Below, one piece after another: positions 32,199 to 51,307 of a DNA stretch of 64,000 nt. Every line of letters begins with the position of its first letter. Position 1 is the first letter of the stretch. A model generated the notes under the pieces. That model saw nothing but the letters and a program-made list of their open reading frames with translations, did no database searches and was not told the DNA's origin. The translations under genes were made by a program, and so were the position numbers. This stretch comes from Dichotomocladium elegans (Eukaryota > Mucoromycota > Mucoromycetes > Mucorales > Lichtheimiaceae): NCBI GenBank assembly GCA_025716815.1, contig JAIXMN010000005.1, positions 1,302,001-1,366,000 on the forward strand, read 5' to 3'.

Positions 32199-33898
32199 TC
32201 AATTGACAAGGAAAGAGTTAGGGTTCTCCTGGCTGATGAAATGGCTCGGATAATGCACGTGCTGTTGGTATGGGAGTCGATGGTTATGAGAACTTCGGGT
32301 TTCGGGTCCAGACGAAGTGAAAGATGTCGTGACGGCGGTCGGTAACATAGTATTAATAGAAGAGGGCCAGTTCTCGTTCCTATCGGATATTAATGAGGGT
32401 AGCCAGTCTGAAGAAGTCGCTGACGCGAGCGGAGGTGAGGTTATGTTAGCCGTCTGTTTTTTATATGGGTCTGGTGAAGGTGATTGCGTCCTTTGATATC
32501 GTTGTGATGAATATGTATTTGATGGAGGCGCCACCGGAGGATGCGATTGCGATGTGAATTCTGTTGTAACAACAGCGTCAGTGCAAGTATGATTTTCCTC
32601 TTGTGCTATGCTGGCAGTACGAATCTGCTCAAGATCATTTTCAGCCTCCTCCTCGTCAAGGGGTATCACGACAGAATGTGCAGTCAGTAAGTTAAGGACT
32701 GTGCGCAAGTTTAGAAAAGGGATCAATAAAAATAAGCAAGTGGTAAAAGGATATCAAGCCGCGATGGGCGGAAGCGCGGTGACCAATCTGACACATGCCA
32801 ATTGTTAGATAAGCCTATATCTTGAAGCCCAAAAAAAAGAAGTTAGTCGGAGCAGCGGCATTAGGAGCAGTAGGTAACAACAACGAATTGTAGTGAACGT
32901 TACCCATAGTATTGTAAATAGAGTACTCTTGTTCAAGCTTGCTGATCTTTTGCTGTATTTCTTGGATCATACGCCGTCGGCAAGCCTGTTTCTGAAACTA
33001 CACATGCTCCCCATTAACAAGTTGCCATGGCTGGATCGAATTTCCTCTGCCGAGCAACTTACCACAAAGTGATCGTTGGAGGCTTTGCAAGTGGTTTTAA
33101 AAACCTCATTGTAGTTTCTGATTGACTCTTCGTATTGCGCCTTGGTGATTTGTATCCGACTCTCACGCTTCTTTTCAATTTCGGAGAGGAGCCGAATATA
33201 CTCTGGATGTGTACCATTCCTGACAGCCTCTTCGAGAATACCGAGCTCAGCGAGTCTATGACCCGATTGTGGGTAAGATTCTTGTTTCTGTATCACGTAC
33301 ACATATTGGCTTGCCTTTCTTTGGCCTCTGCGGCCCGCTGGGCCCGTCTTGCCTCCCGGGCCTCTTTGGTCATACGTTGGCTCGTATTCCGTGTCTCTCT
33401 GTCATTTTGATCCCTGTTTTGATTTGTGGTACCAGTACCGGTGGATGGTTTCGCTCGCTTCCTCGTGTAGCCAGCGGGTCTATTTCCGTCATCACCTGCT
33501 TTTCGGCGGGTACGCTTTCTTGTGGGCGTCGAAGTGGCTGACTGTTGCTCGGACGAGAAAGGATCGCTTGATTCGGCCGATTGAGAGCGCGTCATCCGCG
33601 CTGATTGCTCCGGCGGTGCCGCTGCAGTGTTAAGACTTTCGCTATTATTGCATTCGTGGGCAGCATTCTTGGACGTTGATCCAATATTGTCAACTGCAGC
33701 AACGGGCGATGGCAATCCTTCCATTTCTAATGTTGCCTGTTTCGACGTCGTCGTTGCCACCGTTGCTGCTGCTGCCGCTGCTGCTGCCGCTGCCGCCGCC
33801 GCTGCCGATCGGCTTGCTCGTCGAGTAAGTATACGGTTAGAACCTTCGTCCCCTTTGGGATCTCGCAGGTCTTGTGTAATCGCCCTGGCCTGTGACAT
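32199..33898 (-). CDS. sds3: Sds3-like subunit of a Sin3 histone deacetylase complex
   Basis: Five exons, complement(33303..33898, 33063..33255, 32904..32991, 32755..32787, 32199..32677), give 462 residues. The core NGTHPEYIRLLSEIEKKRE, AQYEESIRNYNEVFK and RRRMIQEIQQKISKLEQEY is the Sds3/BRMS1 coiled-coil domain, which holds Sin3 and Rpd3-type deacetylase together in chromatin. The N-terminus has an Ala run (GCT repeat on the + strand near 33765..33805), Ser/Thr-rich and basic segments (TRKRTRRKAG). After the core, a 33-nt exon (DWSPRFRPSRL) is followed by an AT-AC intron of U12 type (32678..32754). A GT-AG alternative that skips this exon (32903 to 32699) also stays in frame. The first intron, 47 nt with donor GTGTAC, is less certain. 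Confidence 0.85.
32678..32754 (-). other. U12-type AT-AC intron in sds3
   Basis: On the minus strand the intron starts ATATCCTTTT after codon CTT plus G and ends GACTGCAC. The branch sequence TCCTTAAC (complement 32691..32698) lies 14 nt from the AC. Length is 77 nt, and joining the exons keeps the frame (RPSRL-D-SVVIPLDEEE). These are the defining signals of minor-spliceosome introns. Confidence 0.85.
33765..33805 (-). repeat. GCT/GCC repeat encoding Ala in sds3
   Basis: Alternating GCT/GCC triplets on the + strand encode a run of about 14 Ala on the minus strand near residue 35-50 of Sds3. Confidence 0.8.
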
Positions 33899-48006: not shown

Positions 48007-49577
48007 TATTCCCGATTCTCTGTAGACAATGGTATCAGCCTAACTCAAGTGGCTCGAGAGGAGAAGATGTCGGCTCTGGATGGGACTGCGGTTTGGCTGC
48101 ACCCGAGCAGGTCTCCCATCGTGGCTTCGTCGAGGTGCTTTTGTCTTCGTCTGCGTCTTCCGTTGCTTCCCCCTGACGCTTCTGTCGCTGGTGTTGTCGC
48201 TGGTCCCTCGTGGTCCCTCGTCGTTCCTTCCCCCAACCCTTCCGCCGTCAACGCTCAACAGCTCCGGCTCCTTCCTTTCCTCCTTCTTCTGTCATTGTTA
48301 CCGCAATGGTACACCTACGTACCATCGGGCTAAGTTGAAGAGTAAGATTGGGGCTGATATTTTCTGTTGCCTAACGGGTATGCATGCGAAATTTATTTTT
48401 GAAAATAAAGGAATCCCACCATGGAAATGTAATGTGGGCAGCTCCCCTAGGATACAAAACTTCTCAAGAATTATGTATGACTCAGATGATCAGAACCGTT
48501 GAATTTACGAGATCCCGCTCTGGAGTCCTCGAGACGTATACCATTGCTTGCTGTACCTACAGGTTTGTCGCTTCGTGCGCGCCTTTGCTTGCTGACATGT
48601 CGGAATTTTTCCATGCTAACAAAAGGGCTCACGCTGAGCTTCAACTAGCCAGAGGACGACAGTGTTCGGAAGACTTGTCCCAAATGAGATGGGTGCAAAC
48701 TGTTGACGAGATCTTTGTCTTTTGCTCGTCAATGATAAAGTACGTACGCTAAAGGGACAGGACGTATTCCTTGGTTGTTTTGCAGCAGCTGATACTTGAA
48801 ACATCCGTTTGAAAAAACATGACCTTGCATTGATCAGGACTGTCTGTGTGTTGGGGGCGGGGATATGTGTAGGAACGCTTCCAAAATTGCGGTTCAAAAG
48901 GCAGGCATACGCTGATCAAACATCATGGGCGAGTTCATTGCTTTGATACAAAGATTGGTTGGTTACTTTAGATTGATGTCTTTTGGAGAATGGGGGAGGG
49001 GCGACCAAAAGTTCATCCCCGAATGGGGAAATTGTTCTATGCACCGTTTACATGGTTTTGAGGCGCCGCTTACTTTCTTTGTTTGTTCGATTTCATGCTC
49101 TTCTGGGCGGGAAAATCCGGTGTGAGGGAGGGAAAACATGGCATGACGCACGCGCGCGCATGTGTGTGTATATAGGTGCGTTTGGGGAGTGAAGAAGAGG
49201 GGGTGATTGTGCTTCCCATGTGCGGTGATGAAAGGAGAGAAGGCTTAGGATCAGCCTTGAACCCCACTGCCTAATTTGCCTATTTCGTTCTCTCCACCTA
49301 CCCAATTTATGTCCCCCCTCCCACCGCCCCGCACGCACGCACATACACATCCATTTTCTCTCTTTTTGTCCCAATTTAGGATCTTCTCCGGGAAATAGAT
49401 CATGGTCATGCATGACCTAGCAGTACGACGTCGAATGGGTCTCAAGTTATCAGTTGGCAAGTCAAGAAGGACGATGAGGCATCCTTCCTTTCCATTCCCC
49501 TGCTCACCTTTCATTTTCCTCATTAATAAAATCTCTGGTCAACAGCAACGTCATGGAAGCACACTCAGCATGCAGAC
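48007..49577. other. intergenic, decayed sequence and upstream of the TBC gene
   Basis: Includes the copy 3 transposon fragment and overlapping ORFs near 48.05-48.75 kb that I do not recognise. The 5' exon(s) of the TBC-domain gene must lie in the later part (about 49.2-49.57 kb), but I could not identify the start codon. Confidence 0.4.
48775..48850 (-). mobile_element. fragment of the same IS630-type element, copy 3
   Basis: On the minus strand the sequence TTTTTTCAAACGGATGTTTCAAGTATCAGCTGCTGC matches the start of copies 1 and 2 in pieces: the segment CAAACGGATGTTT and the following CAGCTGCT are shared with 47171..47214. Only this short stretch is recognisable. Confidence 0.55.
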
Positions 49578-50806
49578 AGGATTTTGGAAGCCTTAGCAAG
49601 ACAAGATCTACCTGAACTCCGGCGATTGGCACAAGAGCCTGGGGGATTCCTCCTTGATAGTATACGACAGCGCGTGTGGTGGGTTATACTTCTTTTTTTC
49701 TTGCTTCCTTCCAGCCTCAAGGCTAAGCTTTTCTTCTATGTATATAACAAAAGGCCCGTTTTACTCCACACGCACCACGGCTGTTATATTGACGAAAAAG
49801 GAAGTGGTAAGATCTCTTGTCGATATATACACACGCATACATTATGCACCGAGGGATAAGAAAGTTAAATAGGGGAGCGGAAGATGTTCCGGAAGAAGTG
49901 AGGAGTGTATGTGGATGTGCTTGCTGATCTTCACGCAATATGTCACTAGAAAAAGATTTAGCCGACCCAAAGCAAATATCCAAAGACATCGCACGATCGC
50001 TTTATTATTACCCACAGAGTAAGTGCAATGCTAATTCGCTTGCTGCACCTGGTGAAAGCGGTGGTGTGTGTGTGTGTGTGTGTTTGTTCGTTTTTTGCGG
50101 GGCCTTGGAGGAGAAGGAGGCAAAACTGGGTGGAAGGCAGGGATGCACTGAGCATCCGAATACTTTTAGATATTACGCCAGCTCAAAAGAGACAGAAACA
50201 AAAAGAACTGCACAACATGATCGTCGAGATTCTTTGGCGCAATCCGCGGCTAAACTACTACCAGGTGACTATTCATCCTGTTTTTATGGTCTTTGTATTT
50301 ATGTATATGTACATATGTAGGGGTTTCATGATATCTGCAGCTGCTTTTTACTTGTTCTTGGCAAGAAGGATGCAATTCCTGCGGCTGAAAATGTTGCTCT
50401 ATTTTATTTGAGATATCCTTTTTTCACAGTGTGCTGTTGTATGACCTTGCCTCTAATGATCTGATCCTTAACCTTGGGAAATGCACAGATGCGATGATGG
50501 ATTCGTTTGACCCGATCTCGAAGCAACTGCAGCTGATGAGTTCGATATTATATTACGAAGATTCCGAGTTATCAGCGCATCTAAACAGGCAGGTGGAGCG
50601 AGGCGAATGTATTCATTGTTTTCTAACATGAGGATGGTTGCACATACTGAGCAGATGTCATATCATGCCGTATTATGCACTCAGCTGGATTCTGACGTGG
50701 TACAGCCATGATTTCTTCCGATTTGACAAGATTGCCCGACTTTTTGACTTCTTTATTGCCAGCTCTCCGCTGATGCCCGTGTACTGTGCAAGTGCGGTAG
50801 GTTATC

Positions 50807-50837
<31 letters not shown>

Positions 50838-51307
50838 ACTAGTCCTCATGAGTCTACGGGAGCGACTAAAGGAAGATGAGGCTGTAGATCACCTTACTTC
50901 GGCGGGCGGAGCTTTTGCGGGCGGATCAGGATATGCTGCATGCAGCGATCCAACATATTCCACAAGACATGGATGTGGAGCGCATCGTCAAACTGGCAGC
51001 CCAGCTCGAAAGAAATTACCCAGCCTTGGATCTTCAGAAACGGACGGGGATGTGGCTCCATGACGAGTGAGTGCGCCTGAACAAGCACGCCAACGAAAGA
51101 AACGGAAGGACTGAAAAAAAGCTGCTCCTTCTCCATATTAGATCACCAGTCAACACATGGGGAAGCGATTGGGGATCGATGGGCTGGGACGATGTTCCGA
51201 ACAGAATCCAAGCAGACAAGTATCTTGAGCAGCAGCCACGCAAAGAAGAATGGGAGGATGAGTTGCTGCAACTGTGGATGGGGCAGCAGCGGTCAGAGAT
51301 AGAGTGA
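49578..51307 (+). CDS. TBC1D20: TBC1D20-like Rab GTPase-activating protein, 5' end unresolved
   Basis: TBC-domain GAP of the TBC1D20/Gyp8 group, which acts on Rab1/Ypt1-type GTPases at ER and Golgi. Exons: up to 49678, 49754..49806, 49950..50018, 50170..50264, 50321..50412, 50487..50588, 50655..50796, 50888..51066 and 51142..51307. Motifs: LLDSIRQRVW then PVLL across an intron, EILWRNPRLNYYQGFHDI (arginine-containing helix then the YQG glutamine finger), YALSWILTWYSHDFF, RLFDFFIASSPLMPVY and AIQHIPQDMDVERIVK. The IxxDxxR dual-finger arginine corresponds to ISKDIARS. Intron 5 (50413..50486) is AT-AC of U12 type and intron 6 appears to be GC-AG. The C-terminus (ends RSEIE) lacks the transmembrane anchor of human TBC1D20. 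Confidence 0.85.
50063..50080. repeat. TG repeat in TBC gene intron 3
   Basis: (TG) run of about nine units between donor GTAAGT (50019) and acceptor TTTTAG (50169). A second TG run of about 13 units at 50812..50838 lies in intron 7. Confidence 0.8.
50413..50486 (+). other. U12-type AT-AC intron in the TBC1D20-like gene
   Basis: The intron starts ATATCCTTTT after TTG AG and ends AAATGCAC before AGATGCG. The branch site TCCTTAAC (50465..50472) is exact, with its second A 15 nt from the AC. Length 74 nt. Joining gives LFYLR-DAMMDSFDP, which aligns with the LRDFMDP region of TBC1D20. No GT-AG alternative keeps the frame here. Confidence 0.9.

Follow-up and report, generated by a model that had tools for sequence, protein, structure and literature searches.

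In the genome of Dichotomocladium elegans, the 74-nt segment at 50413..50486 (plus strand, phase 2) is, with high confidence, a U12-type AT-AC intron of the minor spliceosome, probably inherited from an ancestor in Mucoromycota. It lies in a TBC1D20-like RabGAP gene, of which it is intron 6, within the window, that is, the whole 64-kb stretch of DNA that was analysed. U12-type introns are rare, and most fungi no longer have them. As judged from sequence, every test that we made confirmed the intron as real.

The AT-AC intron in the TBC1D20-like gene

The intron starts with the 5' splice site ATATCCTT (50413..50420), which agrees with the U12-type consensus RTATCCTT at every position, and contains the branch site TCCTTAAC (50465..50472), which likewise agrees with TCCTTRAC. 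It ends in the 3' splice site GCAC (50483..50486), followed by the exon sequence AGATGCG, and the exon/intron borders read GAG/ATATCCTTTT ... GATCCTTAACCTTGGGAAATGCAC/AGA, or in a longer form GAG/ATATCCTTTTTT...GATCCTTAACCTTGGGAAATGCAC/AGATGCG. The branch A is the second A (50471) and is located 15 nt upstream of the intron end. This distance is short, yet it lies outside the optimum of 11-13 nt that the available text of PMC3584512 gives for U12-type introns. No pyrimidine run is present between the branch site and the end of the intron. The first-pass annotation had proposed an intron with this length, these coordinates, all of these U12-type signals and a branch A at this distance, and its description proved to be exact.

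When we combined AT, GC and GT donors at 50336-50429 with AG and AC acceptors at 50425-50499 and kept the choices in which both reading frames are open, no GT-AG pair remained, and 50413-50486 was the sole choice that restored LRDAMMDSFDP (joined peptide YLRDAMMDSFDP), both as previously claimed. An AT-AG choice at 50415-50488 also keeps the frame and yields LRYAMM, and RYAM, which corresponds to this misjoin, is found in 2 of 87 homologs (Spinellus P0008 and Chlamydoabsidia P0027). Moreover, AT-AC ends by themselves are not diagnostic of U12 introns, according to the accessible part of PMC3584512, and an AT-AC or AT-AG intron could be spliced by the major (U2) spliceosome. We nevertheless consider this very improbable, given the exact U12-type 5' and branch motifs with no pyrimidine run after the branch site, the U11 and U6atac genes of D. 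elegans described below, and the RDAM at the junction of the deposited D. elegans protein P0001; RDAM, or a start with RD, is also seen there in 52 of the 60 homolog alignments listed.

It could also be supposed that the segment belongs to the coding sequence or is retained, and that its likeness to a U12-type intron is due to chance, since either motif alone occurs at chance level in the window: the 5' motif was matched 5 times against 3.18 expected and the branch motif 4 times against 4.13 expected, neither of which is significant. The window nevertheless holds two copies of the motif pair with a spacing of 20-50 nt, where 300 first-order Markov simulations of 64 kb gave a mean of 0.0033 (a match in one run). 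The exact pattern RTATCCTT-N20-50-TCCTTRAC has 18 matches in the 39.4-Mb genome, and its reversed form has none; this count covers exact motifs in one spacing range and may miss real minor introns. In addition, the unspliced frame is interrupted by a stop codon, and human TBC1D20 is contiguous at the junction. A chance resemblance is therefore extremely improbable, and we retain the reading of 50413-50486 as a U12-type intron.

The gene was modelled on the plus strand at 49402..51307 with 10 exons (49402-49456, 49546-49678, 49754-49806, 49950-50018, 50170-50264, 50321-50412, 50487-50588, 50655-50796, 50888-51066 and 51142-51307) that encode 361 aa. Its identification as TBC1D20-like was upheld by the PDB search, in which no molecule name other than TBC1D20 was matched at E 0.001 (4hl4 and 4hlq); human TBC1D20 (4hl4) matched at E 3e-41, and the alignment is ungapped over the AT-AC junction. 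P0001, which carries the TBC family PF00566, is identical to the spliced model over 307 of 307 residues, namely the first 307 aa of the model, so that the AT-AC junction is already in the public gene model. The AT-AC junction had been set before P0001 was used, whereas P0001 served to fix where exon 8 ends and where exons 1 and 9 lie, and its agreement at those borders is therefore not independent. P0001 terminates at a TGA within the last intron (intron 9) and is without the final exon 51142-51307, which adds 54 residues resembling the Lichtheimia homolog P0002, in which the final exon is present. The model also contains two GC-AG introns, intron 1 (49457-49545) and intron 7 (50589-50654), the latter with the unusual donor AG/GCAGGT.

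Further candidate introns in the genome and homologs at the junction

Joined peptides were read for 13 of the 18 pattern matches, and 10 of these (two of them trimmed) were compared with Pfam, with L013, L017 and the TBC gene omitted; at E 0.05, five of the 10 had no family. Support across the join was obtained for five of the 18, which are the TBC1D20-like, prefoldin, Cch1/NALCN-like channel, Glyco_transf_22 enzyme and Sds3-like genes. For prefoldin, the deposited D. elegans protein has the same junction. For the channel, the join is spanned in the alignment to NALCN of the PDB, and for the Glyco_transf_22 enzyme it is spanned in the Pfam model match, while a PDB search with the latter peptide gave no match. 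At L019, the FANCD2 matches start 2-3 residues before the join and support one side, the downstream exon, but hardly the join itself. The CDC24_OB2 match of L024 is under the cut-off and located after the join, and L012, L014 and L025 were judged to be probable chance matches of the two-signal pattern.

The Sds3-like gene holds the second predicted U12-type AT-AC intron of the window (32678..32754, minus strand, 77 nt, phase 1), which has the exact two-signal pattern (L026). When its exons were joined by hand, the protein agreed with Lichtheimia corymbifera P0208 across the 32754-32678 junction, and its homologs carry Pfam PF08598, which we take to be Sds3. Two homologs, P0209 (Lichtheimia ornata) and P0210 (Fennellomyces), continue into LDILF and terminate shortly afterwards. 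LDILF is the reading to be expected of a retained GATATCCTTTT, as if an intron of the 32754-32678 type had been left unspliced in these models.

We then turn to the homologs of the TBC1D20-like protein. Among the alignments that span the junction, 65 of 76 are ungapped there; RDAM in a protein is uninformative on whether the intron is present. Indels among the homologs are not concentrated at the junction: no more than 7 of 82 lie next to it, compared with 9 of 68 around residue 85 and 10 of 81 at residue 182. Indel clustering was therefore discarded as a junction test since it is not specific. In 5 of the 87 homologs, RYPF or RYPL stands at the junction, directly after a conserved VALFF(L/T)-like stretch; the carriers are Absidia cylindrospora P0046, Entrophospora P0048, Jimgerdemannia P0058, Absidia glauca P0064 and the metagenome protein P0081. 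RYPF/RYPL is the in-phase translation of AGATATCCTT, and a retained AGATATCCT would read so. Furthermore, exon sequence is lost just upstream of YAM in the Phycomyces model P0031 and the Cunninghamella model P0032, while a second Phycomyces model, P0006, has RDAM.

Because five of the 87 homologs read as if the 5' splice site had been retained, the intron looks old in Mucoromycota. Based on the RYPF/RYPL, RYAM and exon-loss patterns, which were read from proteins and not from DNA, we suggest that the intron was probably present in the common ancestor of Mucoromycotina and Glomeromycota, where the Glomeromycota part comes from Entrophospora alone, a genus that we presume to be placed there. Four of the public TBC1D20-like proteins (P0046, P0058, P0064 and P0081) are seemingly shortened by a retained minor intron. 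Public gene models in Mucorales-type fungi can thus break at minor introns, as some proteins of relatives are truncated or altered exactly at the junction, and looking for the translated signal of a retained intron, here RYPF at a single codon, offers a cheap route to old minor introns from protein databases alone.

Candidate minor-spliceosome RNAs and the U6atac triad

The first-pass annotation had predicted U11, U12, U4atac and U6atac in this fungus and proposed a genome search for U12 and U6atac; the prediction was largely borne out in Rfam family searches. At E 0.001, U11 (74 bits, cut-off 39), U6atac (46.1 bits, cut-off 33) and U4atac (41.5 bits, below the cut-off of 53; E 1.6e-4) each gave one match, and U12 gave none. 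With a looser E-value, a U12 candidate appeared at 32 bits, below the cut-off of 53 (E 0.0023, second match E 1.18; E 0.0075 in cmscan), at which level 7 of 14 control genomes also match, none of them over the cut-off. Larue and Roy, who used the same Rfam families, took E 0.01 as the level at which a minor snRNA counts as present (PMC10639083, as far as its text is accessible), and since the E values found here meet that value, all four minor snRNAs would count as present, although the search set-ups differ. The Rfam scan of the whole 64-kb window at gathering scores gave no matches. Two hand-made U12 patterns were rejected, with 6 matches against 11 in the reversed control and 8 against 12, respectively, and cmscan found no U12 among the 6 or the 8 loci.

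The U12 candidate contains GUAAGGA, which pairs with the branch site; not counting the branch A, 9 pairs (one G-U) form between TCCTTAAC and the candidate, whose AUUUUUUC stretch could be an Sm binding site. U11/U12-25K, the sole minor-spliceosome protein looked for, is present in the genome (Pfam PF18036, 37.8 bits); with its exons joined by hand it matched PDB 8r7n at E 1.7e-13, whereas a 58-residue piece of it had no match in the PDB. The low snRNA scores are expected in view of Lichtheimia corymbifera, for which the available text of PMC4133162 reports four of the five AT-AC-splicing RNAs, with a U12 without the third stem, a U6atac divergent in its second half and U4atac not found. In Apophysomyces, U6atac is reported and U4atac and U12 are described as absent (PMC5604411, accessible portion). 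Given the low scores in D. elegans, we suggest that such reported absences in Mucorales can be search failures.

In the proposed mechanism, U11 would pair with the 5' splice site of 50413-50486 and U12 with TCCTTAAC, with the branch A bulged out. At the 5' site, U11 would then give way to U6atac, and release of the intron as a lariat would give LR/DAMM. The U6atac core in D. elegans appears to use GGC and not the usual AGC triad, and this is the unexpected part for a specialist.

To our knowledge, spliceosomal RNAs usually show no variation in the catalytic triad. The U6atac candidate aligns with the Rfam consensus without gaps from AAAGGAGAGA to CCCC, and reads UUGGCA where the consensus has UUAGCA; its triad is GGC, while all four U6 genes found in the genome keep AGC. 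The U4atac candidate, found in its own family search, has UGCCAA in place of the consensus UGCUAA, so that the A-U pair at the triad becomes G-C with both sides changed (U6atac and U4atac loci L009, 1501-1636, minus strand, and L011, 1501-1623, plus strand). In the U4atac/U6atac stretches compared, which were hand-chosen and hand-typed, another position changes from U-U to C-G; on the contrary side, a G-C pair is abolished by a change to U-C, and two others are weakened to G-U. The length of U4atac-U6atac complementarity was not significant as a test, since a run as long as the longest one was obtained in 314 of 1000 shuffles, and we therefore relied on the position of the paired changes. The U12 candidate has GCC, the same as the consensus, and in an assumed helix register, that of U2-U6 taken as the model for U12-U6atac, the A-C opposition with this GCC would become a G-C pair.

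Alternatively, the GGC copy of U6atac could be a pseudogene or stem from a faulty assembly, with a normal AGC U6atac elsewhere in the genome or missing from the assembly. The triad was seen in one genome, the U6atac search scored 46 of 2020 first-look candidates, and some eukaryotes have many snRNA pseudogenes. However, the GGC copy stands at E 6.7e-9 against 0.031 for the next among 14 matches at E up to 10; that next match (L051, 22.4 bits) has no AAAGGAGAGA box in the stretch inspected, and another four of the 14 coincide in part with U6 genes. U4atac, moreover, carries the matching U-to-C change, and we regard a pseudogene or assembly error as rather unlikely. We favour, with moderate confidence, a minor spliceosome that works with a GGC-triad U6atac, compensated in U4atac by the change of UGCUAA to UGCCAA and, in the assumed register, forming a G-C pair with the GCC of U12; its active site would thus tolerate a natural change at a position usually regarded as invariant. 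If this is true, nature has provided an experiment on the catalytic triplex: the minor system has an altered first triad position, and AGC is kept in the major U6 of the same genome.

Comparison with known systems

We take D. elegans to be a member of Mucorales. This placement fits its listing in PMC10056009. Among the papers accessible to the literature search, none joins TBC1D20 with a minor intron and none joins minor introns with Mucorales; a GGC triad is not mentioned in the available portions of papers on U6atac with an AGC triad, the catalytic triad and helix Ib, nor is the U6atac triad of L. corymbifera in those of PMC4133162. Group II introns have AGC or, in some, CGC (PMC4424553, available text), and the first triad position is thus known to vary there.

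The intron is of an established class, and such introns had been reported before from its fungal group; the first-pass annotation, too, mentioned minor-spliceosome machinery as reported in some Mucoromycota. The accessible texts of PMC2846911 and PMC10639083 describe U12-type introns in Rhizopus, Phycomyces, Rhizophagus and Basidiobolus, with about 4 in Rhizopus oryzae, about 20 in Phycomyces, 205 in Rhizophagus and 249 in Basidiobolus. To these, the present intron adds a clear AT-AC case for Mucorales. The D. elegans protein is like human TBC1D20 (PDB 4hl4 and 4hlq) over its residues 19-228. In the related mucoralean L. corymbifera, U4atac was not found in what is available of PMC4133162, whereas D. 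elegans has a candidate. Compared with the introns described in the four genera, the present one is found in another species and another gene, but it is alike in its signals, its AT-AC subtype, the minor snRNAs and its early-branching fungal host.
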